From NCBI GenBank assembly GCA_021904315.1, contig CM038920.1:10106001-10170000 (forward strand): a DNA stretch of 64,000 bases. The letters run 5' to 3'. Both the position numbers and the translations under genes were made by a program. Below are positions 1,230 through 58,870 of this stretch, piece after piece. The notes below the pieces were generated by a model, which ran no database searches, was not told where the DNA came from, and saw nothing but the letters and a program-made list of their open reading frames with translations. The stretch is from Sphagnum magellanicum (Eukaryota > Streptophyta > Sphagnopsida > Sphagnales > Sphagnaceae). The stretch's first letter is position 1, and every line of letters starts with the position of its first letter.

Positions 1230-2609
1230 CAGTATGTGGTATGTTTGGGAGCTTTTTTAATTAGTGTTAACGGTCGTAACCTAATTTCGTCGAGAAATCG
1301 CTGCCGAGAACGAGATTCACTGCGCAAGAGAGAGAAAGAGGGAAGGAGAGACGCAACTCGCATGGCGCCGTCAACTTCTCGTTTTCCGACACATACGGAC
1401 TTCTTCGGCAAGAAGCCTTGTGCTATATTCTCCTTCTTCATCCTCTTGCTCAATAACTTATTTATTTATTTTAAATTCTTTTTTCTTCTTGTTTCTGTAT
1501 GGTGATGGTTGCTTGTTCTTGTTGTTGAATCCGTCGCGGAACTACGATTCGTGGAATTTGAAGAGAAGAAGAGGTTTGAGCATTCAATCGATGTTTGTAA
1601 TTGCCGTTATTTCTACAGCGGGGTCTTTCCACATTCGAAGAAGGCGAGGGGTTTTTGTTTGCCCGGCTCATTTCGCAATTTTTTTTGGTTTGGAGTTTTT
1701 TGAAGGATTCTGGTGGATTGTGATGAACAATAAATAGCGGCGGCTCAAAACTGTACTCGTGTTTTTTCCCTTCTTGCTTCTGTTGTGTAAGATTTGGAAT
1801 TCTTCGACGTATCAAAAGCGGTCTCTCTATGATTGCAGTGCAGGTTGTGATCTCGATATTCTGTTACGACGGTCATTTGCTTATGGAATTCTTGTCGCTT
1901 TTGCGGAATTCAATTCGAGAGTCAATTATTGCTTTCTCTTTTGCTGGTAGTCGAAGACCATGAGATTTGCTGTTTCTACGGTGCGGAGTTTAGAAGTGAA
2001 AACTATGCAAAATTGCTTGGTGTTTGCGTCCAACGGCGAGTTTGTTAAGTTTCAGAAATATCGGTTGCAAAGATGTCTTCATTTGCTATATTGAAGATCT
2101 TGTAAAGTGTGAGAAGTAGAACAAACTATTCTTGATAGAAGCCGGTTTATGCGTTTCTGTATGTTTGGATCGTTTTAGAGGAGCAATTTTGGATTTACGT
2201 AGGACAAGTTTCTACTTGTTGCCTTGTCGCAGTCATGTTGTTTCTTTTGCGGAAAGGCTTCCTTCCACTGTTGTCCTAATGTGTGGTTCTTGAATCAACC
2301 GAACACGGGGCGATGGTGCAAACTAGAATATCGGAATGTCAATACACTTGCTGGTAGCGCAAAGAACCTTTATAGGATAATATGAAGCAAACCAGCTCCT
2401 CTATTGTGATCTTTTATAAGGAAGGATCGGATCTATGAAGGCTGCGTGTTGCTCCATCTGAGAGTCCTTTCTGCAATTGTATCATACTTTGTTGTGCAGA
2501 TGTTGGTCTGCGGCTGATCAGCTTCTTTGTAGTATGTTTTCGTCCTGATCGCGTCCTGTAACGAAGTCATCTTTCGTTGCTGGGAGCGATTTGCACGTCT
2601 GGCTGCATC
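1230..2609 (+). promoter_or_regulatory. Promoter and 5' leader region of the Dicer-like gene
   Basis: Less AT-rich than the DNA upstream, with a purine-rich GAGAGAGAAAGAGGGAAGGAG-like stretch near 1330-1350 typical of plant leaders. No helicase motif (DExD/H box, SAT or QRxGR) is seen in any frame. An in-frame TAA (2559-2561) lies 17 codons before the chosen ATG. A leader intron is possible, but no donor/acceptor pair stands out. Confidence 0.4.
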
Positions 2610-5600
2610 ATGGAAACACCGTCGGTTACTGTAGAGCCGTTGCGCTACGAGCGGGCGATTCCAGGAGCATTTCAATCACCTGCGGCTGTGGACGCGTCTG
2701 GCGCGTCGAGATTCTTCATGTATACGATCGTATTCTCGCATTTTCACGCGGAAGGAACGGATGCAGCTCTACAGCATTTGGCGTCAGATTTTCTCTTGCT
2801 GGCTCCTCAAATGCTGGACGGGGAGATTTCAGGCATGTCAGTGAACCTCCATCTCCCGAACTGTGCCTCCGTGCAAGCTCACGTAACCTACTGCGGCGGT
2901 CCCGTTTTCTTTGACAGTGAGAAGGTATGCTCAAGTACTCTCTCCTATTGTCTTATGCTGTTTCTCGATCCGAACTAGTCCTGTGCTACATACGTGATGC
3001 AATGTTTGGGAAATTCTGCCGATTTGCTTCTTGCATCGCTTACGGAGACATACATAGTTCTGTTTGTTCATGAGCGTTTGACGACAGGTGCAAACCATGA
3101 AGCTTTTCACTGCTTGGATCTTTCACTTCCTTACTGGAAAATCCGTCCAACAACAATCAAAATCCAGGGACAACCATGGACCAAAGTATTACTACATTTT
3201 GCCATTGCTTTGCAGCGGCAATGGACAACAGAGCCCTGAAACAATTTCAGCAAAGCTCATTGACTGGACTGTAGTACGGGCAAGTCTCGGCTCTAGTCTT
3301 GTCTACAAGAGGAAGTCGGAGTATGCCGATCTTCTAGCGGAGCTCAAAGATGCATATGCTGATGGTAGTGAAGCTGTATGTGTGCCGGTCGAAGAGGGGG
3401 AACTCAGAATGCGCAACGGAACATTCAACGTGCATGAGATGGAAGATGCGGTTGTCTCTTGTACCAACAACGGGTCGTCTTATTTCGTTCATGGTTCCTT
3501 GCAACGCTTCCCTGACAACACGCTAGTTCAACAATCTTCAAGCCGATCACCACTCACCTATACTGAGTACTATGCAAAAAAGTACGGTTTCTTGTCCCGT
3601 CTCAATACAGTCTGGTCGAGCGCCCTCTGTACTACTCTGGCTTGACATACGTTTGAAGAAAAAACTGCAGTGCATATATCTCATCTTCATTGGATTACAG
3701 ATGAATCCTGCCACAATCTGAATTTTGGTGGTTTTGTGATTGTTCAAGGATGCCAAATGGGTAGCTCAGTTGCTTGAATTTCAATACTCAAACATTGAGG
3801 AATCATGGACTATATTCCTCTTACTTAATGAAGTTTTGGGGGTGTATGATTTAGGTGGAAGTACAAGTTGCTGTTTCCCAACCAGCCTCTTCTGAAGGGA
3901 TATCGACTCCTGCAAGCTGCTAACTACCTGCGCAAGACATCTTCAAGCTCCTTCAATGGTATGTCTGTATTGTCAAGAGTTCTGGCTTACGGTATTGCAG
4001 CTGTGGTTATTGAATCTTGTAGCTATGAGAATTCATGCTTTTTATTAATTTTAGACAACATAATTCAGTGCCAAGTGATGCTTTGATCAAGCAGATTTAG
4101 TTGAGGAACTTATAGCTTCTGTTCTTTATCAAGTCAATGATTCAGGACAAGGTGTGCCAAAGGGTTGGGAAAACATGGAGCTTCCTGCTGAAGTATGCAC
4201 ACTCCATGTGGGTATGTATGGAAAGCTGTTTCGGGGAGCTATGCGGTTGCCATCTGTGCTTCATAGCCTGGAAATGACACTTGTGGCTGCTGATCTGCGC
4301 AACACCATTGGTCTCCCTCTATCTTGCTATAAGGTTGAGTGAGTGCTCTTGTTTGTGATGGCATGCACTTGGAAGAAATACATTAAGTTCACACTATTTT
4401 ATATCAAAGGAATTGGCTGCAGGTGATTGCATAATCCCTACTGAAATTTTTTGTAAAATTCCTGCCAGCAAGATCTTATAAGCAAAAGGGTGCATGCAGA
4501 TGCAGGAAGCTTTGACATCTGGAGCTTGTGAAATCAACATATCTTACGAGACACTGGAGCTACTAGGAGATAGTATACTCAATTTTGCTGGAGGGGCTTA
4601 TGTGTTTATGGAACATCCATGTTTCAATAGGGAGCAACTCCACCTCACCCGTTACAAGTTAGTCTGTAATAAGGCACTTCATCAGTTTGCTCTCTTGCGC
4701 GGCCTCACACCTTATGTTTTTGCTGAACTTTGGAACCCAAGGTTATGGGTTCCTCCAGGTCCTGGTATGGGAAATCATGGGTCCCAAGAAGGCTTGGTAA
4801 GAGTTACCAAAACCTCTGCTGCTGCTGAGATGATGTGCTCAATTCCACATGTGGTCACATGGCTACACAGAAGCACTTGATTGAATTTTCTGTTGCTTGG
4901 TTCGACTGAGCAAACAACTGTATGAAAATATCATGCAGGAAGGTCAAATTCTAGGAAGGAAGACATTAGCTGATGTGGTGGAGGCTATTGTAGGAGTGTA
5001 CCTCATGAATGGCAGCCTGGAGGCAGCACTGAAGGCAATGACCTGGCTTGGATTGCCCATGTACTTGCCTTCAAAATTTCCTGAAGCTCCTCTTTTGGAA
5101 AGGTTGAGTGATATGAACTTGCTCGGCACAGCTGACATTGCCTCACTTCAAAACAAGCTTGGCTATCAATTCAATGATGCTAAGCTGTTGGTCTCAGCTT
5201 TTGACAATGGGCATGATGAGGATAGGACCAAGCAGGAAGAGGGCTGTGAATTTCAAAGGCTTTCCTTCTTAGGTAACTAGGTTACCTAGCATCACTAGCT
5301 GGGCTGACTGTAGAGGGGCAATGCAGTAAGAAGTTCATGTTTTATGTTTGTATTATATGTTCCTGATTGCATATCTTCAGTCTTACATTGGACTGTGCAG
5401 GTTTAGATTCTTGTGTGATTATTGCTGGTTTTGACTCTCAGACCTTGTGGGGAAGGTGTTTTTAGCAAGGCTCTTTGCTCTCTTGTACATTTAAGAAAAC
5501 TCTCTCAATCATTGTTTTTTTGCATTTGGGCTGAGGAATGTTTGCCTTTGTGAACAGGGAATTCAATATTGGACTTCTTGATTAGTCGACACTTGGTGCA

Positions 5601-6727
5601 GTTGTACCCACAACTTGATCCTGCTAGCCTCACACACCTCAAACATGCAACAGTGAATATAGAGAATTTTGCTTCAATTGCACTTCACCATGGGCTGCAT
5701 GTGTACCTGCAGAAAGTGTCACCTAAGCTAACATGTCAGATCAGGCAGTTCGCAATTTTATTCTGGCAAGAAGGTGGCAGTGCATTTGGTATTGGAGGGC
5801 AGAGCTCTCCAAGGGTTTGTCTCTCTCTATATCACACAATGCTTTCTCTGCAGATTTTAAAACCATAATTCTACTTTGCTACAGAGAGCTGATGAATGCA
5901 ACCTCATCCTGTACTTCCTGAGTTCCAACCAATCTGTGTGGTGCTGGTTGCAGGCCCTCGGAGCACTGATACAAACAATAACGGGTGCCATATTTCTGGA
6001 TTCCTACCTTGACATTGAGCTTGTTTGGAAGGTTCCTTACTCCACTTGAATTTCAAAAGAAACTCTGCATATGTTTTTGCATAGCCTTCACCAGTTTTCC
6101 CTTGATGCTGTCTTTCTTCTTATATTTCTGGCTAGTTTGCTGAGTATTTGTATCACGTATGGTTTAGGGTACATGCATGCATCAAATTCTGAAGCCTTTT
6201 GAGCTGTTTCCAGATACTTGAACCTCTACTGCAACCTCTAGCAACACCTGAGACTGTGATGCTGCACCCACTACGTCAGTTGGAGATTTTATGTCAAAAA
6301 CAAGGTCGAAAGTTGGATGTTCGATCTGAGCAGTCCAATGGAGTGGTGCAGGCCCATGTGTTCATTGACTGTATCCTGCTGGGCACCTCTCAAAACAAGG
6401 AGAGGAATGTTGCTAGAAGGCTTGCTGCTTGCAAGGTAGATTGATGTGTAAACACACCTCTGGCATTTTGCAGACTTTTTTCCCTCAATGCTTTGTGTTC
6501 GTGGTTCTGCCAATCTTTTCTGTGAATCTGTATTTCACTTTGCTAGGAAAAGAAGCATACTTTCCACTTATATGTAAACTATTCCTCTCTTGTTGGGCCC
6601 CATCACAAATCAAGGATGTCTCAGTAGGTTCAATGGTTTCTCGCAGGCACTTCGTTCACTTTCTCATCAAGCCTGTGGATTCCACCATCATGACATGAAG
6701 AAAGCTGGTATGCTGATGATGCTCTAA
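2610..6727 (+). CDS. mDCL: Helicase-less (minimal) Dicer-like RNase III, mDCL type
   Basis: Small-RNA processing enzyme. Inferred exons: 2610-2924, 3088-3581, 3855-3958, 4095-4333, 4500-4796, 4939-5272, 5558-5814, 5954-6031, 6214-6435, 6647-6727. All use GT..AG introns with agreeing phases and give 806 aa. Order: Platform/connector (about 1-165), PAZ (about 166-290, ending in the usual NQPLLKGYRLL region), RNase IIIa (about 385-520; LELLGDSIL with E404 and D408, ADVVEAIVG with D495 and E498), RNase IIIb (about 553-706), C-terminal dsRBD (about 723-790, HPLRQLEILCQKQG). Helicase and DUF283 regions are absent, and the frame is closed by a stop upstream of the ATG. In RNase IIIb the four metal ligands are replaced (S592, N596, A684, Q687) although the surrounding fold sequence is well kept. 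Known: Physcomitrella mDCL also lacks the helicase and is needed for 23-nt siRNAs. Orthology is inferred. Ten open exons argue against a pseudogene. Exon 5 has tandem acceptors 6 nt apart (4499 and 4505). Confidence 0.87.
4500..5030 (+). other. RNase IIIa domain, active site complete
   Basis: Encoded by exons 5 and 6 of the Dicer-like gene. The signature LELLGDSIL carries the first Glu/Asp pair (E404, D408), and ADVVEAIVG in exon 6 carries the second (D495, E498). In human Dicer the matching residues are E1316, D1320, D1561 and E1564. This half-site should still bind Mg2+ and cut one strand. Confidence 0.85.
5146..6031 (+). other. RNase IIIb domain with all four catalytic acids replaced
   Basis: Encoded by exons 6, 7 and 8. 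The fold is well kept: LGYQFNDAKLLVSAF, QRLSFLGNSILDFLISRHL, NIENFASIALHHGLHVYL, ALGALIQTITGAIFLDS. The family signature is RLEFLGD and LGD(I/F)xES. Here E is S (TCC), D is N (AAT), D is A (GCA) and E is Q (CAA). The codons are read directly from the DNA. A structural pseudo-RNase domain that still pairs with IIIa is the simplest reading. Confidence 0.85.
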
Positions 6728-8460
6728 AGATTACACAACAAATGCTTTACCAGCTCCCTTGCAGCAGCAGCCACTTCTTTGTGGATTGAGTGTGCAGTTT
6801 CTTATTGCCTGCCTATTTCTGAGGGTTGCCCGCTTCTTATTGACTCTCCCTCTCTGCTGTGACATGTTCTCTGGTCTGCCAACTATGATCAAAGATCCAG
6901 TAGTGTGCGGCAAGGCTGACAGCATCTGCAGCAGCATAACAGTTGGAAAGTGCAACATGGGCATTGCTACAACTTACCCCTACAATCTTTCAGGTATCTT
7001 ACTGCTGCCATTATACTAAAATCCTTAGATTTGTTCCACTTTACTTATGATGTTACTACAACCTCACTTCCTCTGATACTCTCTCCTGGATGAATGGGTA
7101 TAGATTAAATTAGGAATGGGAAACTTAAGATTTTGAAAGTTAGCATGATGGGACTGAATATCCCAATTTTAAATGAAATCTATGTTAGTGAAATTATATT
7201 TGTAATTTGCCTGTTATAAAGATTGTCTTCATAATTTTTGGTTTGACTTTGAAATCTTGTTATGGTGATGGTTGGGGTTTTTTTTTCCAGGCCAAGGAAT
7301 GTGGCAGAGAATTTCCACATTGGGACATTTGTTCTTTTTGATCCTCAAGTTGTTGTTTGCAAGACCTCAAATGACAGCTAGAATGCGCCCATCCATTTCT
7401 GTTATGCCGGAACTTGAACTGGACTCCAAGGGGGTGTAGTGCAACCAAAGAGTAGATTCCTATTAAGGACTACTTCAGTGGAGATGATCACACTAGATTG
7501 CCTTTTCACAAATGTGGGGGCATAAACATTCTACTCTTGTTTTAGAGAACTCTTGTTGCTTGCTTTCACCCCCTGGTGAAGAGGGCAATTTTCAAGCCTT
7601 TTTTAAAGAACTAAAAAGAAGCTTGAACCACCTAGAGTTTCTGCTCAGCCCTGTGGGTGCAGGGTTTGGAGCGATTCTGCAAGATGGCAAAGGGTGCTGA
7701 TGTAACCAACTGTGATACTGTCATTTGCCTCAAGTTGACACTCCAAGTGATGGTCCTTTCTTTCTCTCTTCACTCTCTTGAATTGCTTGCTGGGAATTTG
7801 CCTGCTAAATATTCTGTTAACTCAATGCATTTTCTGCCACACAAAAGTTGAGAAGATATCAGTTGCTGAACACTTCTAAGTACAAAGTATGCTTCATATG
7901 ACTATAAGGAAGAAACAAAAACAGGAAGCTAACACCAAAAATCAATAATTGGGCAAGAAAAAGTTCATGGAAGATTGGATTTCTCCTTTCTCACATCCCA
8001 TTTGCAGTTGGATCTGCAGAGAGCTCCAGGAGAAGCTTGTTTTGGGTGTTACACAAATGTTTTCCAGTTCTTCATCTTGTATGGCTGGCCATACTCACAG
8101 GGTTGGAGTTGAACAAGTGAAGTCCTATTATTGCCGAGAAAAGATAGTTTCCAAAGAAGAGTAGAAGAGAGGACAAAAGAAGAGGTGATGAGAGAGCGAG
8201 ACATCTGTCTCTGCTTGAAGCACTTGTGGGAACGCTGTCACTTTCTAACAGTACTTGCGACACACCAAAGTTACCTTTACATGGATCAAATCCAGGGAGT
8301 TTGATAATGGTGGAGCTTCTTCCCTACTGTCCTCAACCCTAAACCCGTGTCCATATATTATTGGGTTGTTGTAATGTGAACCTTCAGTATGGGTCCTTGT
8401 CCAAGGATTTTGCAAAGACAAAATGATGCATAACATCTGTCAGTGGTTCAATGGGAAGAT
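6728..8460 (+). other. 3' flank of the Dicer-like gene
   Basis: Non-coding as far as I can see. It has the base composition of transcribed DNA (less AT-rich than 9-13 kb) and probably includes the 3' UTR. A pyrimidine tract plus CAG at about 7282-7292 could be an acceptor for an alternative last exon, but what follows reads only about 16 codons and resembles no Dicer tail. Confidence 0.35.
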
Positions 8461-9884
8461 AGATACTGAAGAAGTTTACTTATACTGAGAAGGTCAAGGA
8501 AGAAGTCAGGTTTAATTACATCATTACCTTGCCCGTCAGTATCAATTAGCATACTTGACCTTCTTCAGACTAGAGAGGTCTATGTAAATATTCACTGATA
8601 CTAACCAAAGTTAGGCATTGATCATTTCATGCGCAAAATCTGTTCTTCATGTTCGCTACAGAAATTTTTGAGCTCAAATTACAATGGAAGCTGCAGAGTT
8701 TTAAGAGCTCAGATTGTGTTTTAAGTTGGAGAGATTCTGAACTCAGACCTTCTTGTAAGCTATAGAGGTTTTGCTACTGTATTGTATGCTGCAACTTTAA
8801 ACAAATACTAGCAGAGCACATCAGGCACACATATCTAGAATGACCCACAGTCTCTTTAAGATTCACCAAAAGAGATACCTGGAGCTTCTACTGTTGTTGG
8901 TCGTGTGCTAGGTTTGAACATGAGACTGTAAAATCTCAAGAGTTAGAGAGCATAATGCTGACTGATATGAAAAAGAAGTTTCAAAAAAGACTGGTAAACA
9001 AACATCAGCTGGGGTGTACCAAGACAGATCTGATTCTATACAAGTGCATATGTCTAGTGCAGCTTTGCAACAATAACTTCTCTGTGGAGGTAGATGGATG
9101 AATCATAGTGTGCAGAATTGCCAGATGAACTTATCCAAAGGCCTCAAACACAGGAAAGATATCCAAAGAAGGGCAACTATAGTGGTGCAATTGAATTGCA
9201 CCCAAAACTCCAAATGCATTGATTAGAACAACTTCGTGAAAATGTTTAAACTTTCATGAAATGATTCAAACAGATACTCTACATATGGATCTTTGTGATA
9301 TGAATCATAACCTTTCCATATCCTAAATCCAACTATCTTGATGTATTCTTTGTGTTTGCCATAAACAAATATTAATTCTTCCATGAACCGCATGCTGAAA
9401 TCCAACTCTTGGAAATAAAAATATTTAAACACTTACATACAAAGGATTCTCACAAATATGGATGGAAGCCTTCCATCATGTACATCCCTATTATCATTGA
9501 AAAAACAAATAACATATTTTCTAATATTGATTAACAGTTCTTCAACAATGAAAAAGGGTCAATGGATCAAAATTAGTAAGTTGAAGAAATTAGTTGATCT
9601 CTATGTGGTTGGTTTTGAAGTAATAAAAGAAGGGTGAATTTTAATTGTTTGATAAAAAAAATGTCAAATGTACACATCTACCATTGAACAAGAATGGGCT
9701 GTAGAACATTGTGATGGTGGTAGTTGGTATATGGATATGCCTAAAAGCTCTATCCCATATGAAGAGGTTTCTCTTCACAAAGAGTGTGGTGCTAGTTGAT
9801 AAGTGATGCAGAAGGTGTCTCGATTAAACTTCCTCCCCAGATTTGGAACAAGCGTAACAAATAGTTTCACAAGTAACCATTGCT
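8461..9884. other. Intergenic, nothing recognised
   Basis: AT-rich. An imperfect inverted pair around GAAGGTCAAG (about 8489 and 8560) could form a weak stem. No open frame with coding character was seen. Confidence 0.5.
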
Positions 9885-14523: not shown

Positions 14524-14567
14524 AAACCCTAAAGGAAGCCCTATCGGAGAAGCCCGTAAAACCCTAG
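14524..14567 (+). promoter_or_regulatory. Telo-box pair in the PWP1 leader or promoter
   Basis: AAACCCTAAA (14524-14533) and AAAACCCTAG (14558-14567) lie 92-135 bp upstream of the PWP1 start codon. Telo-boxes are known in plants from promoters of ribosomal-protein and ribosome-biogenesis genes, which fits this product. Confidence 0.55.
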
Positions 14568-14658
14568 AGGAAGAGCGGGTGGCCGATGGTGCAAATGCTT
14601 TGTGGATTCTTCCTCGTGCAGCAAAGGCGTGAGTGTTTTGGATCTTTGCGGTAGCACG

Positions 14659-16305
14659 ATGATAGCAGCAGTGTGCTGGGTGCCCAAAGGTGCGGCCAAG
14701 GCTGTGCCTGTTGTGGCTCCGCCTCCGTCTGAGGCTGAGCTACGAGCCCTGCTAGAATCCCAAGCTTCTGTCCTCCATGGTGATCATTCTGATGAGGATG
14801 AGGAAGAGGAGGAGAATCAAGACCTGGAGATGGAGGAGGACGAGGAAACCGAGACCGCTGATGATCCTGTAGCAGTGGCTTTGGCAGCTGCGGTTGCCGT
14901 TGGAGCTTCCGTGCAAGGTAAGAAAGCCGCAAGCAATTCTGGTATAGATGGGGTTGTTGATGGTCTTGCAGAGCTGGATATGGAGCATTATGATGAAGAA
15001 GACGATGAAGGAGTGGAGCTGTTTGGTAATGGAGGACTGGGTTCTGCTTATTATCCGAGTAATGCGGATGATCCTTACCTGGTAAACAAGGACGACGAAG
15101 ACGACGAAGAGATAGAGGACATGACTTTGAAATCCTCTGATCTCATCATCCTGACGGCCCGCAACGAAGACGACGTGAGCCATATAGAGGTATGGGTTTA
15201 CGAAACTGAAGGTGGTGATGCTAGTGAAGAAACGGAGGAGAAGAACATGTATGTGCATCATGACATTATGCTGCCTGCTTTTCCTCTCTGTCTAGCATGG
15301 CTGGATTGCAGCCCGAAAGGTGATACCATGGGGAACTTTGTGGCTGTTGGAACCATGCAACCAGATATAGAGATTTGGAACCTGGATGTGGTGGATGAGG
15401 TAGAGCCTGCAACTGTCCTTGGTGGAGCTCTGCAGCCAGCTCTGCAAGAGGAGGTCAGCGATGAACTAAAATCGAAGACAACAACAAAGAAGAAAAAGAA
15501 CAACAAGAAGAAAAGCAAAGAAGTGAAGTACAAAGAAGGGAGTCATACAGATGCTGTGTTAGGGCTTTCTTGGAATGCAGAGTATAGGAATGTGATTGCA
15601 AGTGCAAGTGCTGATCGGACTGTGAAGATTTGGGACATTGTGAAGCAGAGCTGTGAGCACACTTTACAGGTTCATACTGATAAGGTCCAAGCTGTTGCTT
15701 GGAATCGGAAAGAAGCTCCAGTTCTCCTGAGTGGGTCGTTTGATCGAACTGTAGCCTTGATGGACATGAGAGCGCCAACTTCTGCAGCAATTCGGTGGCC
15801 TGTTTCAGCAGATGTAGAATCCCTTGCCTGGGATCCTTTTACTTCTCACAGCTTCCTTGTGAGCATGGAGGATGGGACTGTTCGAGGATATGATGTGCGT
15901 AGTGGGGGCTCTACAATGGTTTCTAGCAGCACAGCAGCTCCAAGAACAGGAAATTCCACTGATGGAAAACCCATCTTCACAATCCATGCTCATGAGAAAG
16001 CTGTTTGCAGCTTGACCTACAATCCTGCTGCACCAAATCTGATTGCAACTTCCTCTACAGATAAGACAGTGAAGTTATGGGACTTGACTGGAAATCAACC
16101 CACATGCATCGCATCCAACAACCCTAAAGTTGGTGCAATTTTCTCCTCAAGCTTCTGTAATGATGCTCCCTTCTTGCTTGCTCTCGGAGGCTCTAAAGGT
16201 AATTTGCATGTTTGGGACACCTTGACTAGTGCTGAAGTCTCACGCAGATTTGGAAAATTTTCTTCTTCTAGGCCACGCACACAACCTAGTAAAACCAAGG
16301 TTTGA
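14659..16305 (+). CDS. PWP1: PWP1-like WD40 ribosome-biogenesis factor
   Basis: Nucleolar WD-repeat protein that supports rRNA synthesis and pre-rRNA processing in yeast and animals; 548 aa in a single open exon. The ATG at 14659 gives MIAAVCWVPKGAAKAVPVV, matching my recollection of the plant PWP1 start; codons further upstream in the same frame have no ATG. An acidic segment covers about residues 43-160, with the family block DEEDDEGVELFGNGG and YYPSNADDPYL. A lysine-rich NLS-like stretch lies near 272-294. WD repeats include SASADRTVKIWD (about 317), SGSFDRTVALMD (about 355), SMEDGTVRGYD (about 397) and SSTDKTVKLWD (about 464). No intron is needed. A retrocopy origin is possible, but the frame is complete and the promoter has telo-boxes. 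Convergent with RPAC2. Confidence 0.93.
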   Translation: MIAAVCWVPKGAAKAVPVVAPPPSEAELRALLESQASVLHGDHSDEDEEEEENQDLEMEEDEETETADDPVAVALAAAVAVGASVQGKKAASNSGIDGVVDGLAELDMEHYDEEDDEGVELFGNGGLGSAYYPSNADDPYLVNKDDEDDEEIEDMTLKSSDLIILTARNEDDVSHIEVWVYETEGGDASEETEEKNMYVHHDIMLPAFPLCLAWLDCSPKGDTMGNFVAVGTMQPDIEIWNLDVVDEVEPATVLGGALQPALQEEVSDELKSKTTTKKKKNNKKKSKEVKYKEGSHTDAVLGLSWNAEYRNVIASASADRTVKIWDIVKQSCEHTLQVHTDKVQAVAWNRKEAPVLLSGSFDRTVALMDMRAPTSAAIRWPVSADVESLAWDPFTSHSFLVSMEDGTVRGYDVRSGGSTMVSSSTAAPRTGNSTDGKPIFTIHAHEKAVCSLTYNPAAPNLIATSSTDKTVKLWDLTGNQPTCIASNNPKVGAIFSSSFCNDAPFLLALGGSKGNLHVWDTLTSAEVSRRFGKFSSSRPRTQPSKTKV

Positions 16306-47027: not shown

Positions 47028-50000
47028 ATGGGGGGGAAGAAGAGCGGGTACTTGCCCGAGACTCCTGTGTTTCTGGGCACCACTAATGTGAACCAAGCTC
47101 GACAGGAACGACAAGGACGCATCACGCTCTTGATTCTTTTCTTCAGCATTGACCTATTGTTTGCTTCGGTACGTGTTGTTGGTATGTGTTGATATGCTTA
47201 GATCAGCATTTGGGAGATGAGGGAGCTGGGGATGACAACCCTATCCTGCATCTTGAATGAATGCAAAGATCAGGCACTTGAGGAAGGAAGAATTTTGCTG
47301 CTCTTTGAAGAACATTTCTTTGGGTGGGTGATGATGTGTGGACTCAATTTGGGAGGAAACAAGATGTGGTTTGGGGGGGGGGATGCATCTCATCATAAAC
47401 CTTGGAGGTGTATTCAAGTAGTGACCATGGATGCTTCCTGTGCATGCCATGGGCTGTCATGCAGCTGAATTTGCAAGGCTTATGAAACATTTGCTTGTCA
47501 ACTTCGCTCAATCTGCTGCAGAAAGATTTATTCTTCGTTTGTTTCTGTGTTCAGAGTATGAGCTGTTTCAACTCAGAATTGCCTTTGATGTGCTATTGTT
47601 TGCAGCTCTTGTTCACCACTGTGCATCTGTGGAGTGCCGACAATGATTTCACATTGCGAGGGTTCTGGATTTTGCTTTCACATTTTTCTACAGATACATT
47701 GGACCTAGTTCTACTCAGCATTTTGCGCTTGGCAAGTCTCTCAGGCCTGGCTTACATTGGGAGTTCACTTGCTTGGAGTGAGGGTGTTACCAAGGAAAGG
47801 GTGCAAGAGAAGGTGAGAGCTGGCAAAGTGCAACCAAACACAGATGTGTACACTAATGGGAAGCCACAGACCAATGGAGGAACTGTAGGTAATAGCAATC
47901 CAAGTGTCGGAGTAAGGGAGCCATTGTTGCCAAAGAAGGACCTAAAGACTGCAAAGCATCCTACTACTATCTATGAAGAATGGTTTTCTGGCTCCTCCAA
48001 AAAGGATGTACTGCTGTTTGTTGTTTTCCTGCTCTGCACTGTCTTCCAGGTATGACCTTCCTTGGCAATTGAAGCTGTATGCTACTTGGGGGTGTACTTG
48101 AAATTTCATATTGCTTCTCTCTCTGCCTCTGTCTATCTCTGTCTCTGTCTCTGTTTCTGTCTCTCAGAGAGTGCTCTTGAGACCTCTCTGTGTGAATCTC
48201 ATCTCAGTTTCATGATGTAGTCTTGTCCTGTGATTTTGCTACTGCCGTTTTGCCACTAATTTCTTGTCTAATACAGGACAATGCATGTGAACTGCCCCTT
48301 GGGATTGTGTGATGTTTGATGGTTGCAAATGACAATGTGGAGTGCAGGCATATGTGGGCGCCAAGTGCGTGGGTTTCTATTTTGATGTCCAGCATAGGTT
48401 ATTCAATGTGCGCGCGGAAATATGGCAAGGCATTTTGATGGGCTCTACTGTTCTGTGGATAAATGCAGAGAGTACCACAGTGACACGTGTTGTGGACTCC
48501 AATCGTGTGCTTGCTCGTGCCCTCTTTTTGGAGGCGAAGCGAGCTGCCAGTAATCGTCGTGATTCCCAAATTGCCATCCATGCTAATGAGTAATAACAAG
48601 ACCTTCCCCCTTCACTTTCAGCTTGAGTTATATGGAAGATGACCAGGATGGTGGATTGAAGCATTAATAATGTTAAAACAAACATAAAAGTGCCTCATGG
48701 TGAAGGGGAAAATCTGTATTAACTCAAGAAACCTTTGGATTTGGTCAAGCAATAATCCTAACTGTGGTGGGTGGGTTTGTACTGGTTGGCAGTGGTCCTG
48801 CCACTGGGCAACCAAGTTCTCAAGAAGGTGCCTTGAGAGGGGACAAAGGAGTAAAAGAGGAAGCTGAGGTGGGCCAGACAAGCTACTTGTTGCGTGCAAT
48901 ATCACTTGCACGTGGGGAAATTCTTCTGCTGTCCTGTGCTTTTTTTTGTCTTGCTGTATCCTCTTTCTCCAGCTTGATACTACCCAATTATCAGGTGGGA
49001 CGTTTCTCCCTTTTTCAATCTTCTTTTGCAATCTAGGCAGACAAGTTTGTAAGTGCAATAGGAGGAGATTTGCAAGGGGGTGACACCATGGAATGAGCAG
49101 GCTGTGACTAGGACTTGAACCAAACACTTGCTTTTCATAGAAATCAGATAAAAGAGAGCACAGGAGAGTTTGTCTTTGTACTTTTGTGTTAAGTATGAAT
49201 CTATGTTTCTAGCATGTGAACTCAAGGATTGGAAATTTTTTCTGGCTTGCTGTTGGCTGTTCACTGGAAGTGATGTTCATCTTGACTTGCTGTTGCAGGG
49301 TCGAATACTGGACCATGTGATACAAAGGGCAGTAGGTCTGTTTAAGAGGGATGTGGTGTTGCTGATTGTCTTCAGCTTAGTCACAGGCCTGTTTGAGGCG
49401 GTTCGTAATCTCTGCTTTGCAGTGGTCGGCAAGCGTGTTCTGAAAACTTTGCAGGACAAACTTTTTACTGGCATCATTATTCAAGACATTGCATACTTCG
49501 ATGGCACTACTTCAGGCGAGGTGTGCATGCTACTTCATAACTGAGACAAAAAAATGTAGCTTGAACAGTTCCAGGCAAGAAATGGACAGACTTTCCTGCT
49601 AGAAACAGTGTTCCAAGTGCATTCTATTTTGTGCTTCATCTACCAGAGCAAGACATACTCATCTCCATTTATGCCTACTTGGGATTTCCTCCTGCAAGGT
49701 ATGAGTGTGTGTGCAATGTATAGTAGGATTGCACATTTACAGTAATTTAGACAGGATTGCTGGGTTTCAGGTCAACTCATGAATTGAGTTAGTCAAGCCT
49801 GGTTGATTTGGATGCCACATTCTTGTGCCCTGAAGTATTGGGGGTTTGTGGAAGTTTGTAATTCCCTCAAGACTTGAACTGTTTTATGTTGTGGGTGCTT
49901 TTGGACAGCTCACCTCCAGGCTCACCAATGATGTGGCCTCAATGGCTGAGCCAGTGAATTGGATGCTCTCAGCATTGTTGCGGAACTTTCTGGCCCTTGG

Positions 50001-52306
50001 TGGTGGGTTTTTGATGTGCTTCATTATCAGCTGGAAACTGAGCATGCTTGCCTTCACAACCATGGCCCCTATTATGCAAATTACTGCTGTCTATTCACGA
50101 TGGTCCAGGGAGCTTAATCGCAAGCGCTATGCTTTGCTTGCGGAGGCCAATTCTGCTGCTGCTGAAGCTCTTGGAAACATTCGTACAGTGCATGCCTTTT
50201 CTACAGAGGATGTGGAGATTGAGCGTTTCAAATCTAAAACCTTTGCTGCCATGCAAAAGGGAGTGAGGGATGCTTTTGCATATGCTGGAGCTGTTGCTAT
50301 TAATGATTGGCTGGATTTGGGTGCATCTGTACTGATTCTTTGGTGAGTAGCTCTTCAGCAGACCTGTTTCCTACTGTACAGAGATCCTACTCTATGGCTG
50401 AGAAGATGCTGAAACAGTAGTATTTGAAGTCAGATTTGGTATAGTACAAGGCAGCTGCAGTAAGTTGCAGGACATTTATTGAGAGGTTTCATGAAGTCAG
50501 TTGAGGAATGCTTTCAAAGACACTAACGTTGAAGCCTGTATGCAAAGGTATGGAGGAGTGTTGGTGATGAATAATCGGCTGTCAGCTGGCAAGCTTATCA
50601 CATTCCAGTTGTATTGGAACCAAATACAAGGAGCATACAAAGGTATAATGTCAGTGTTGATGTCACTGACACGGGCAGCAGGTGCAGCCCAGCGTGTTCT
50701 GTCATTGGTCGATGCACTCCCAGACATTGATCCAAATGCTGGGACTATGGTTTCCTCTTTGGAAGGAGAGGTTAAACTTGAGAACGTCTATTTCTATTAC
50801 CAGATGCGTCCCCAGAATCCAGTCATATGTGGGGTTAACTTGGAAGTGGATAAAGGCCAAGTTTGTGCACTGGTGGGGAGAAGTGGTGGGGGCAAGTCCA
50901 CCATTGTGCATTTGCTTATGCGGTTTTATGATCCCACACAAGGGCGTATTCTACTGGATGGCTGGAATTTACGAGACCTTAATCTGAGGTCTGTCCACAA
51001 ACACATGGGGTTGGTCGCACAGGACACACAAATGTTTGCATGTTCAATAGAGGAGAACATTACCTATGGGTTGCCACATTATCATCCTGAGGATGTGGAG
51101 GAGGCTGCCAGGTGAGTTCTGAAAGAATTCACCTATAAACTGACTTGAAATTTTCACACAGCAGTCACCATCCCGTCTCTCTGGTTCTTTGGTTTCAGTC
51201 TGGCTGTAATTGAGAAACTCTAGAATGGAGTTGGTAACCCGTTGAGCTCTCTATAACACTTGCATCTTGTTATCCAGGTATGCCAATGCTCATGACTTTA
51301 TATCGAGGTTTCCTGAAGGCTATGCAACTCGAGTTGGGGAGCGAGGGGTTCGACTTTCTGGTGGACAGCGCCAGGTACTATTCATCATGGCTTTTTTTAT
51401 GGAGTTACTTTTGTAGAGTTTTCTGCAACAAGATTTCCATTTAGTTCGAGTTTCCATTTGTAATGAGCACGTTTGTGTTCCATAGGACATTGAAGTATGA
51501 GGTGCCTCTTCCTTCCCCTCAGCAATCCATGAGCCTTAACTGATTGTATCTGTCAGTGGGAAATGCTTGGAGATGTTGGGATGTTGGGCTCTGATGGGTG
51601 CTCTCTATATGAACTCAGCGAATTGCAATTGCTCGGATGCTGCTGAGGCGACCAAAGGTATTACTGCTGGACGAGGCAACAAGTTCACTGGATACGGAGA
51701 GTGAGGCATTAGTGCAACAAGCCCTGGATCGGCTCATTGGAGAGGGTGGTCGTACTATTATTTTAGTTGCACACCGCCTCTCTACTGTACGCAATGCTGA
51801 TAACATTGCAGTTCTGGACAAGGGTTCCCTTGTCGAACAGGGGACACATGAGCAGCTTCTGGAGAGGAGTATGTGACATTTCTCCAGTCCTTTCATATCT
51901 TTTAATCTAAAGTTTGATAACTTCAGCTCAGTGCAATGACAGTTGTTCAAGATTCCAACAACTGTCTTATTATATTTGTTATTGATACCATTTATAGAGA
52001 TTAAAACACATGAGTGTCAGTTGGTCAATTTTCTCTAGGAAGCTACCTACTGTTGTTAGTAATGCTCCTATCTTTGTTTGAAAGCTACTGTTGATGGTCT
52101 AAGATCTGTGGGTTGGGTTGCCATGTACCTATGGCAATTGTCTGCTGAGCTGTTTGTGTTGTTGATGATCTGCAGAAAGTGGGGTGTATGAAAGGCTTGT
52201 GCGAAGACAGTTGCACAAGACAAGCAACCGCATTGTGGAGGACCCAGAAGAGGAAGATGGGGCTGATCTTGACACCCTCTTGGAGGATGAATTGTCTCAA
52301 GCTTAA
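47028..52306 (+). CDS. TAP-like ABCB half-transporter with N-terminal extra membrane domain
   Basis: ATP-driven exporter subunit expected to work as a dimer in an internal membrane; the substrate is unknown (peptides in TAP/TAPL relatives). Exons: 47028-47168, 47606-48049, 48348-48589, 48793-48994, 49299-49520, 49909-50342, 50548-51111, 51278-51374, 51619-51868, 52176-52306; all phases agree; 908 aa. About four hydrophobic segments (residues 30-57, 66-105, 178-207, 217-233) form an N-terminal domain resembling TMD0 of TAPL/ABCB9. The core membrane domain (about 314-610) follows, then the ATPase: Walker [10 protein letters not shown] (672-680), Q loop VAQDTQ, signature LSGGQ (776-780), Walker B VLLLDE (796-801), D loop SSLD, H loop H834. 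All catalytic residues are present. It ends in an acidic tail [12 protein letters not shown]. Plant TAP-type proteins exist; which subtype this is remains unsure. Confidence 0.9.
48115..48166 (+). repeat. CTCTGT microsatellite in ABC intron 2
   Basis: Imperfect TCTCTG/TCTGTC repeats within the 48050-48347 intron, on the coding strand. Simple repeat, likely variable in length. Confidence 0.7.
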
Positions 52307-55207: not shown

Positions 55208-57420
<2,213 letters not shown>

Positions 57421-57969: not shown

Positions 57970-58870
57970 TATTATGCATGTTGATTTTGTAAGGCCATGT
58001 ATTTAGCTTCCGTGGAAGACTTGGCTACACATTTTGGACTTTTATTTTCATGAAATGAGGCCATTGCCAAGGGTTATACTATAGTGGATTTCTTTCCATC
58101 TAACTAACTAACATGGTCAAAATTGAAATAACCATTTGAAACAAGTTATACCCCTTTTGATAAACAAACAACTATGAGATAGATGGTGTTTTTAAGGTAG
58201 TAGAAAATTTGTTTGGCAATATTCAACCAAGGTTGTTGAATGGATTGCATGAATTGAAACACAAGTCTAATAGCAAAGCATATGTCAAACTGACTAAGGA
58301 TCATGATATGCATTTTGTCACCAAAGACAAGGTATTTCTCAAAAATCTCAAGATATAGTTTGAATCCTTCAAGCAAAGGGACAAGTGAAGGCCTAAAATT
58401 TGACGTCTTCATGTTAAAGAGATATTTCAAAATAAAATTCTTGTGACACATGAGGATGCTCCAATGGTCACGATGAAACTCAACACCATAGTAAATGAAA
58501 TAGTTGAAGAGACCAAAAGGACACATGTAAAATCTATTGGACTTGATTGTTTTTAAAACTATTTGATTTTTGAAATATGGCTCCTTTGTGATGACTAGGT
58601 CATCAATGAAGATGACAAGGATTAACAATATACCATTTTCATAATAGTAGTTATATGTTAGGGTGTAATTTTGTTGTACCATACTTTTGAGACTTGTTGA
58701 AGGTCATAGAAAGCCCTATGAAACTAGTGGAGTTTGTGTTTTAAATCTATAGCAACAAACTTGCGGGGTTGAAAATTGTACATCTTTCTTAAAATCCCCA
58801 TTGACAAATGAAATCTTTGTGTCCATGTGAATGAAATCTCACTTGTTAGCAACAAGGCAATGATTTTTTA
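57970..58870 (-). mobile_element. Ty1/copia retrotransposon fossil (RT and RNase H)
   Basis: In minus-strand order: a copia reverse-transcriptase segment (FVNGDFKKD-like patch near 58790, then VIFIDDLVIT at about 58620-58590, the FxGVEFHRD counterpart near 58470, and the C-terminal part ending QIFYYLKNTI near 58180), then an RNase H patch with KSSTEAKYMAL (about 58020-57990). It is broken at several points. No LTRs, gag or integrase recognised. Old. Confidence 0.8.

Follow-up and report, generated by a model that had tools for sequence, protein, structure and literature searches.

The locus examined here, in the moss Sphagnum magellanicum, raises the question of what a plant Dicer can do when only one of its two RNase III centres retains catalytic acids, and whether such a gene is still in use. 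It lies in a window of 64 000 nucleotides, this being the whole stretch of DNA that was analysed. An initial annotation had reported an RNase IIIb domain that had lost all four acids beside an intact RNase IIIa, and had proposed a protein that cuts one strand only.

Gene structure and domain composition

The mini-Dicer gene, here called mDCL-A, occupies positions 2610–6727 of the window on the plus strand. It consists of ten exons; all nine introns are bounded by GT and AG, and the open frame comprises 806 codons and a stop codon, so that the initial description of all exons as open holds. The span given at that stage, 5146–6031, does cover RNase IIIb, but the gene is the longer interval given above. 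Exon 1 (2610–2924) carries the start codon and the N-terminal platform region (residues 1–105) in an open frame ending at a GT donor; its RYERAIP motif is also present in a paralogue on contig 17. Exon 2 (3088–3581) encodes platform and PAZ regions, as placed by alignment to DCL1, DCL3 and DCL4 chains, exon 3 (3855–3958) the end of the PAZ region with a QPLL motif, and exon 4 (4095–4333) a connector running from LPAEVC to LPSVLHSLE. The first RNase IIIa motif, YETLELLGDS, with E404 and D408, is found in exon 5 (4500–4796), together with a histidine 28 residues past E404. The acceptor of this exon is at either 4500 or 4506, a difference of two residues, and the contig-17 paralogue favours 4500. 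Exon 6 (4939–5272) contains the second RNase IIIa motif (LADVVEA, with D495 and E498) and, in its 3′ part, the start of RNase IIIb, ending in RLSFLG with S592 in place of Glu. The RNase IIIb core, NSILDFLISRHL, with N596 in place of Asp, is encoded by exon 7 (5558–5814), and the second RNase IIIb motif, ALGALIQT, with A684 for Asp and Q687 for Glu, by exon 8 (5954–6031). Exon 9 (6214–6435) matches DCL1 (chain 7eld) in HMMER, the match extending to query residue 788; we take its counterpart in DCL1 to be the dsRNA-binding part, and no dsRBD match was obtained from Pfam at E ≤ 1 in the mDCL-A protein. Exon 10 (6647–6727) supplies the C-terminus and the stop codon. All ten exons are on the plus strand.

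Among solved structures the protein matches DCL1 best (E = 1.7e-96), followed by DCL3 (1.5e-73) and DCL4 (3.4e-50). Pfam Ribonuclease_3 identifies two RNase III domains in the one chain (two stretches, 103 bits). The Pfam PAZ match (E = 3e-05) scores 24.4 bits against a cut-off of 28.8, whereas that of the paralogue, mDCL-B, is above it at 39.4 bits; a genome-wide PAZ search listed neither gene. The PAZ region and RNase IIIa of mDCL-A align to DCL1 as one stretch (i-Evalue 8e-30).

No sense-strand DECH or GKT-type motif was found in the 11.6 kb upstream of mDCL-A, where the single antisense match lies beside stop codons, or in the 12.35 kb upstream of mDCL-B; the scan recovered DECH for the two canonical DCLs that it covered, DCL1 and the one on contig 6, and would miss a motif split by an intron. 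Missing upstream helicase exons were rejected for mDCL-A within the same limits. In a genome-wide search Dicer_dimer was matched on contigs 19 and 6 only, and this search also missed the DCL1 on contig 2. Within the limits of the motif scan and the domain search, mDCL-A has neither a helicase nor a Dicer_dimer domain, the layout that defines the moss mDCLs. Judged by its sequence, it is a Dicer without a detectable helicase and not a canonical plant DCL1–4, in which a helicase is combined with two complete centres.

Catalytic residues of the RNase III domains

RNase IIIa of mDCL-A keeps all four acids (E404, D408, D495 and E498), as stated initially and with the same numbering. RNase IIIb keeps none: S592 (TCC), N596 (AAT), A684 (GCA) and Q687 (CAA) stand for Glu, Asp, Asp and Glu, and at least seven base changes separate these four codons from ones for the acids. 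A comparison with DCL3 at the four positions had been suggested as a check; in the HMMER alignment they lie opposite E, D, D and E of DCL1 (7eld), DCL3 (7vg2) and animal Dicers. The claimed loss of all four acids is thus borne out for mDCL-A, while the sister gene has lost one. Q687 aligns with residue 1370 of chain 7vg2, which we equate with E1329 of the 1580-residue DCL3 by our own arithmetic (a chain offset of 41). With four acids in RNase IIIa and none in RNase IIIb, mDCL-A is not a catalytically complete Dicer.

The loss was set against the conservation of each domain in seven reference Dicers. Of 31 RNase IIIb positions invariant among them, mDCL-A has lost 11, including all four acids (hypergeometric P of about 0.010), and mDCL-B ten, one of them an acid. 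The invariant RNase IIIa positions lost number four of 19 in mDCL-A and six of 19 in mDCL-B, none of them acids; few of the 19 come from the second RNase IIIa block, because the contig-19 piece ends early at an intron. The eighth reference, chain 9kby (DCL4), was left out of this count. It has Asn and Gln in the DxxE motif of both RNase III domains, residues that are probably engineered. The other solved Dicers, four chains, keep all acids, and no acid is missing from the three canonical DCLs identified in this genome (24 of 24 kept). The genome searches scored only the best candidates in the assembly (438 994 042 bases, 31 contigs), and further DCL copies may exist.

Two other explanations of the loss were considered. 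Exon joins restoring RLEFLGD or LGDxxE had been named as what would overturn the claim, and alternative splicing of this kind was rejected: a six-frame scan of window positions 2501–9000 revealed no other RNase IIIb stretch resembling LExLGD or GDxxE. Sequencing error is unlikely, since the changes recur in a separate decayed copy on contig 16, which likewise has no acid at any of the four positions; the loss is therefore old. On these residues, RNase IIIb of mDCL-A is almost certainly catalytically dead.

The paralogue mDCL-B

A second minimal Dicer gene, the older paralogue mDCL-B, is likewise open; it encodes 806 amino acids on the minus strand of contig 17 (7688000–7697999). Its RNase IIIa is intact, and its RNase IIIb retains three of the four acids (E, D and D), the last Glu being replaced by Gln. 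The two proteins share 58% identity over 768 aligned residues. Built by homology to mDCL-A, the mDCL-B model can be divided into ten exons that match those of mDCL-A, intron phases included, with all introns GT..AG; at this degree of identity, the shared layout supports the exon joins on which the finding depends.

Two features are common to the paralogues. Both carry Gln where DCL3 has E1329, and both have His at the RNase IIIa residue 28 past the first catalytic Glu, where all eight references have Ser or Thr. This residue corresponds to S1344 of human DICER1, on the interface facing the RNase IIIb centre. The equivalent of T1733, an RNase IIIb residue facing the RNase IIIa centre, is Thr in mDCL-A and Asn in mDCL-B. 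Since mDCL-B has lost only one acid, inactivation may have begun with the Glu-to-Gln change before the two genes separated. The simplest reading of the two sequences is that RNase IIIb may have been switched off before the split, with three more acids lost in mDCL-A afterwards; the same change could also have arisen in parallel. Synonymous divergence between the genes is about 2.0, which is saturated, and exceeds the two peaks attributed to whole-genome duplication in Sphagnum divinum (0.406 and 0.643; PMC9946827), which were obtained by another method.

The NG86 dN/dS between mDCL-A and mDCL-B, calculated with saturated dS, is 0.17 overall, 0.147 in RNase IIIa and 0.142 in RNase IIIb. Branch lengths are 0.30 (mDCL-A) and 0.26 (mDCL-B) for RNase IIIb, and 0.25 and 0.38, respectively, for RNase IIIa. 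Given the low dN/dS, the similar RNase IIIb branches and the exon constraint described below, the acid-less domain looks conserved as a fold. In three short-block trees the paralogues group together at 99–100%, but support for their position relative to other Dicers is 37, 48 and 54, and an origin from DCL1 is therefore not claimed. DCL3-like and DCL4-like serve as provisional names for the proteins on contigs 6 and 19, respectively, because each has DCL1 as its best solved match.

Two decayed copies of mDCL-A sequence

On contig 16 (L020 7369–10000 and L021 1–563) lies a segmental copy, now decayed, that runs from the end of exon 6 of mDCL-A into the 3′ flank and so covers the 3′ half of the gene. 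Its exon-7 acceptor is changed, exon 8 is present about four times in tandem, and exons 7 and 9 contain three stop codons, whereas mDCL-A is open. The RNase IIIb residues are S, N and Q, with the third position Ala in the first exon-8 repeat and Thr in the others. Exon 7 also occurs as an older, decayed copy on the minus strand of contig 10 (about 10292311–10292652), which contains several stops and already shows the Asp-to-Asn change. Hence the acids were lost before the contig-16 copy arose, and Asn had replaced Asp before the one on contig 10.

Between mDCL-A and the contig-16 copy, 38 of 666 exon sites differ, compared with 206 of 2311 non-coding sites (P = 0.008; introns 75/806, flank 131/1505). 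By exon, the differences are 0/30 (exon 6), 9/257 (exon 7), 3/78 (exon 8), 17/220 (exon 9) and 9/81 (exon 10). The RNase IIIb exons 6–8 show constraint (12/365), exons 9–10 none. When differences in exons are assigned to the gene or to the contig-16 copy, the nonsynonymous to synonymous counts are 2:3 in mDCL-A and 10:6 in the copy (P = 0.61; four unpolarised); for exon 7 against the contig-10 copy they are 4:5 and 12:7 (P = 0.43; eight unpolarised). These counts point toward constraint on mDCL-A and are too few for significance.

In both copies, C-to-T and G-to-A changes account for most differences from mDCL-A. For the contig-16 copy, differences with C or G in the gene and T or A in the copy outnumber the reverse by 31:3 in exons and 115:30 in non-coding sequence. 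Such a bias would fit cytosine methylation confined to silenced, decayed copies, the gene itself being unmethylated.

A probable Dicer with one working centre

We consider mDCL-A to be probably in use as an enzyme that cuts with RNase IIIa only, a ‘half-Dicer’. RNase IIIb would be kept as the structural half of an intramolecular RNase III dimer, the platform and PAZ regions would hold dsRNA ends, and RNase IIIa alone would cut, acting on the strand that is not measured and leaving a nicked or one-strand-trimmed duplex. One parallel is the DCL3 mutant E1329Q, which we take to be of the Arabidopsis protein. This RNase IIIb mutant is reported to cut the RNase IIIa strand only, and to yield from that non-measured strand 23 nt when the overhang is 1 nt and 24 nt when it is 2 nt (PMC8846587). 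The changed Glu is Gln in both moss genes; the DCL3 mutant differs in being engineered and full-length with a helicase, and in keeping the other three RNase IIIb acids. An mDCL limited to RNase IIIa would be expected to cut as that mutant does, giving 23 or 24 nt according to the overhang. Support for one-strand cutting thus comes from the absence of RNase IIIb acids, the complete RNase IIIa set, the Glu-to-Gln change in the paralogue and the behaviour of DCL3 E1329Q.

Human DICER1 provides a second parallel. Its hotspot residues E1705, D1709, D1810 and E1813 are the same four positions, S1344 is the facing RNase IIIa residue, RNase IIIa and IIIb pair within one chain, and hotspot and S1344L mutants are reported to keep RNase IIIa cutting and lose or impair that of RNase IIIb (PMC6695490). 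These are somatic disease mutations, usually of a single residue. The His at the S1344 position in both paralogues is in line with a Dicer working on one side. So are the low dN/dS, the similar RNase IIIb branches, the shared exon layout and the open frame beside stop-bearing copies. Against it count the otherwise invariant positions lost from RNase IIIa, the Asn facing the RNase IIIa centre in mDCL-B, the lack of constraint in exons 9–10 against the contig-16 copy and the small number of polarised substitutions.

An unlikely alternative is a non-cutting adaptor, in which the PAZ and platform regions bind and present dsRNA ends, DCL3 or another nuclease is the partner, and the RNase IIIa acids are incidental. 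The absence of a detected helicase and the invariant RNase IIIa positions lost in both paralogues would suit this role, as would the trypanosome editing endonucleases, in which a catalytic RNase III is paired with a non-catalytic partner (PMC9508840); those pairs, however, are separate proteins of mitochondrial editing and not Dicers. An adaptor would not need RNase IIIa acids, yet all four are kept in both genes at 58% identity while RNase IIIb acids were lost, and this disfavours it.

Somewhat less likely again is a dying gene, in which constraint was relaxed after duplication, RNase IIIb was lost first and the other paralogue does the work. Two further copies in the genome are already dead, mDCL-A has lost three more acids than mDCL-B, constraint against the contig-16 copy is missing from exons 9–10 and the polarised counts do not reach significance. 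On the other hand, 806 codons have stayed open with GT/AG introns, even though the acid losses are older than the contig-16 copy and the Asp-to-Asn change older than that on contig 10; exon divergence is below non-coding divergence overall; and the C/G-to-T/A bias runs toward the decayed copy, as if that copy only had been methylated and silent. A two-molecule enzyme, mDCL-A with mDCL-B or an mDCL with DCL3, each giving one active centre, is very improbable: RNase III domains work as dimers and both paralogues are open genes, but the same RNase IIIb centre is missing in both, so that the two would not complement each other, and the paired domains of DICER1 reside in a single chain.

Comparison with other Dicers and the 23-nt siRNA of mosses

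The mDCL of Physcomitrium patens resembles mDCL-A in its described layout, having PAZ and RNase III domains and no helicase or Dicer-dimerisation domain (PMC10721683, PMC5144951); the available portions of these descriptions mention no loss of catalytic residues. Like P. patens, the present genome has mDCL beside canonical DCLs, but it has two open mDCL genes. Variant acid motifs, whether in one RNase III domain or in the two, are listed for Dicers outside plants, namely those of Trichoplax, Naegleria, diatoms and Albugo, in a passage that does not turn to tests of one-strand cutting (PMC4791657). Altered RNase III motifs are thus already published for other eukaryotic Dicers, and mDCL-A adds a plant case without any RNase IIIb acids. 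A dead-IIIb moss Dicer was found neither in a literature search of titles and abstract openings nor in the accessible part of a Dicer review (PMC10328071). Work that assigns a strand to each centre makes use of Dicers in which RNase IIIb is dead, either engineered or from cancers (PMC8846587, PMC6695490). If the present reading is true, a plant gene that retains this state would be a natural experiment, indicating that one-strand dicing can be useful.

The one-strand cutter of the initial annotation was also given a role in 23-nt siRNA production. The residues and the DCL3 E1329Q analogy support the cutting; the 23-nt step is conjectural. P. patens mDCL is reportedly required for 23-nt siRNA, according to a 2015 abstract by Coruh and co-workers. 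Of two secondary sources, one likewise states this requirement (PMC5144951) and the other that the mDCL mutant has more 23-nt and fewer 24-nt siRNAs (PMC10721683). P. patens DCL3 is itself reported to be required for 22–24 nt siRNA (PMC2600652), and purified Pol IV, RDR2 and DCL3 to suffice in vitro for 23 and 24 nt without mDCL (PMC8846587). Any 23-nt output of mDCL must arise beside or after DCL3. On a short dsRNA of the Pol IV–RDR2 type with a 1-nt overhang, mDCL-A would give a 23-nt strand, and DCL3 or another nuclease would complete the cut.

That mDCL-A acts in the 23/24-nt hc-siRNA pathway is a reasonable conjecture by analogy, with the odds leaning slightly against it: the link comes from a different moss, for which the secondary reports conflict, and DCL3 makes 23-nt RNA without mDCL in vitro. 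More speculative is the broader proposal that one-strand dicing is natural to the whole clade of moss mDCLs, with RNase IIIb switched off by an ancestral Glu-to-Gln change together with the Ser/Thr-to-His change in RNase IIIa, and that RNase IIIa-only cutting of Pol IV–RDR2 duplexes is the source of moss 23-nt siRNA. A one-sided mDCL, if true, may help to explain the odd-sized small RNAs of mosses; the question of 23-nt beside 24-nt siRNA then reduces to which strand mDCL cuts and how long the product is.

Other features in the window

At 58146–58703 on the minus strand, a reverse transcriptase of retrotransposon type is weakly matched (RVT_2, below the cut-off), and a MYST-family histone acetyltransferase with a Tudor-knot and a zinc finger is encoded at 55640–56914 on the same strand. 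On the plus strand, positions 49834–51115 hold exons for the membrane region and the ATPase of an ABC transporter, and a WD40-repeat protein is encoded at 14560–16305 in one open frame of 581 codons.
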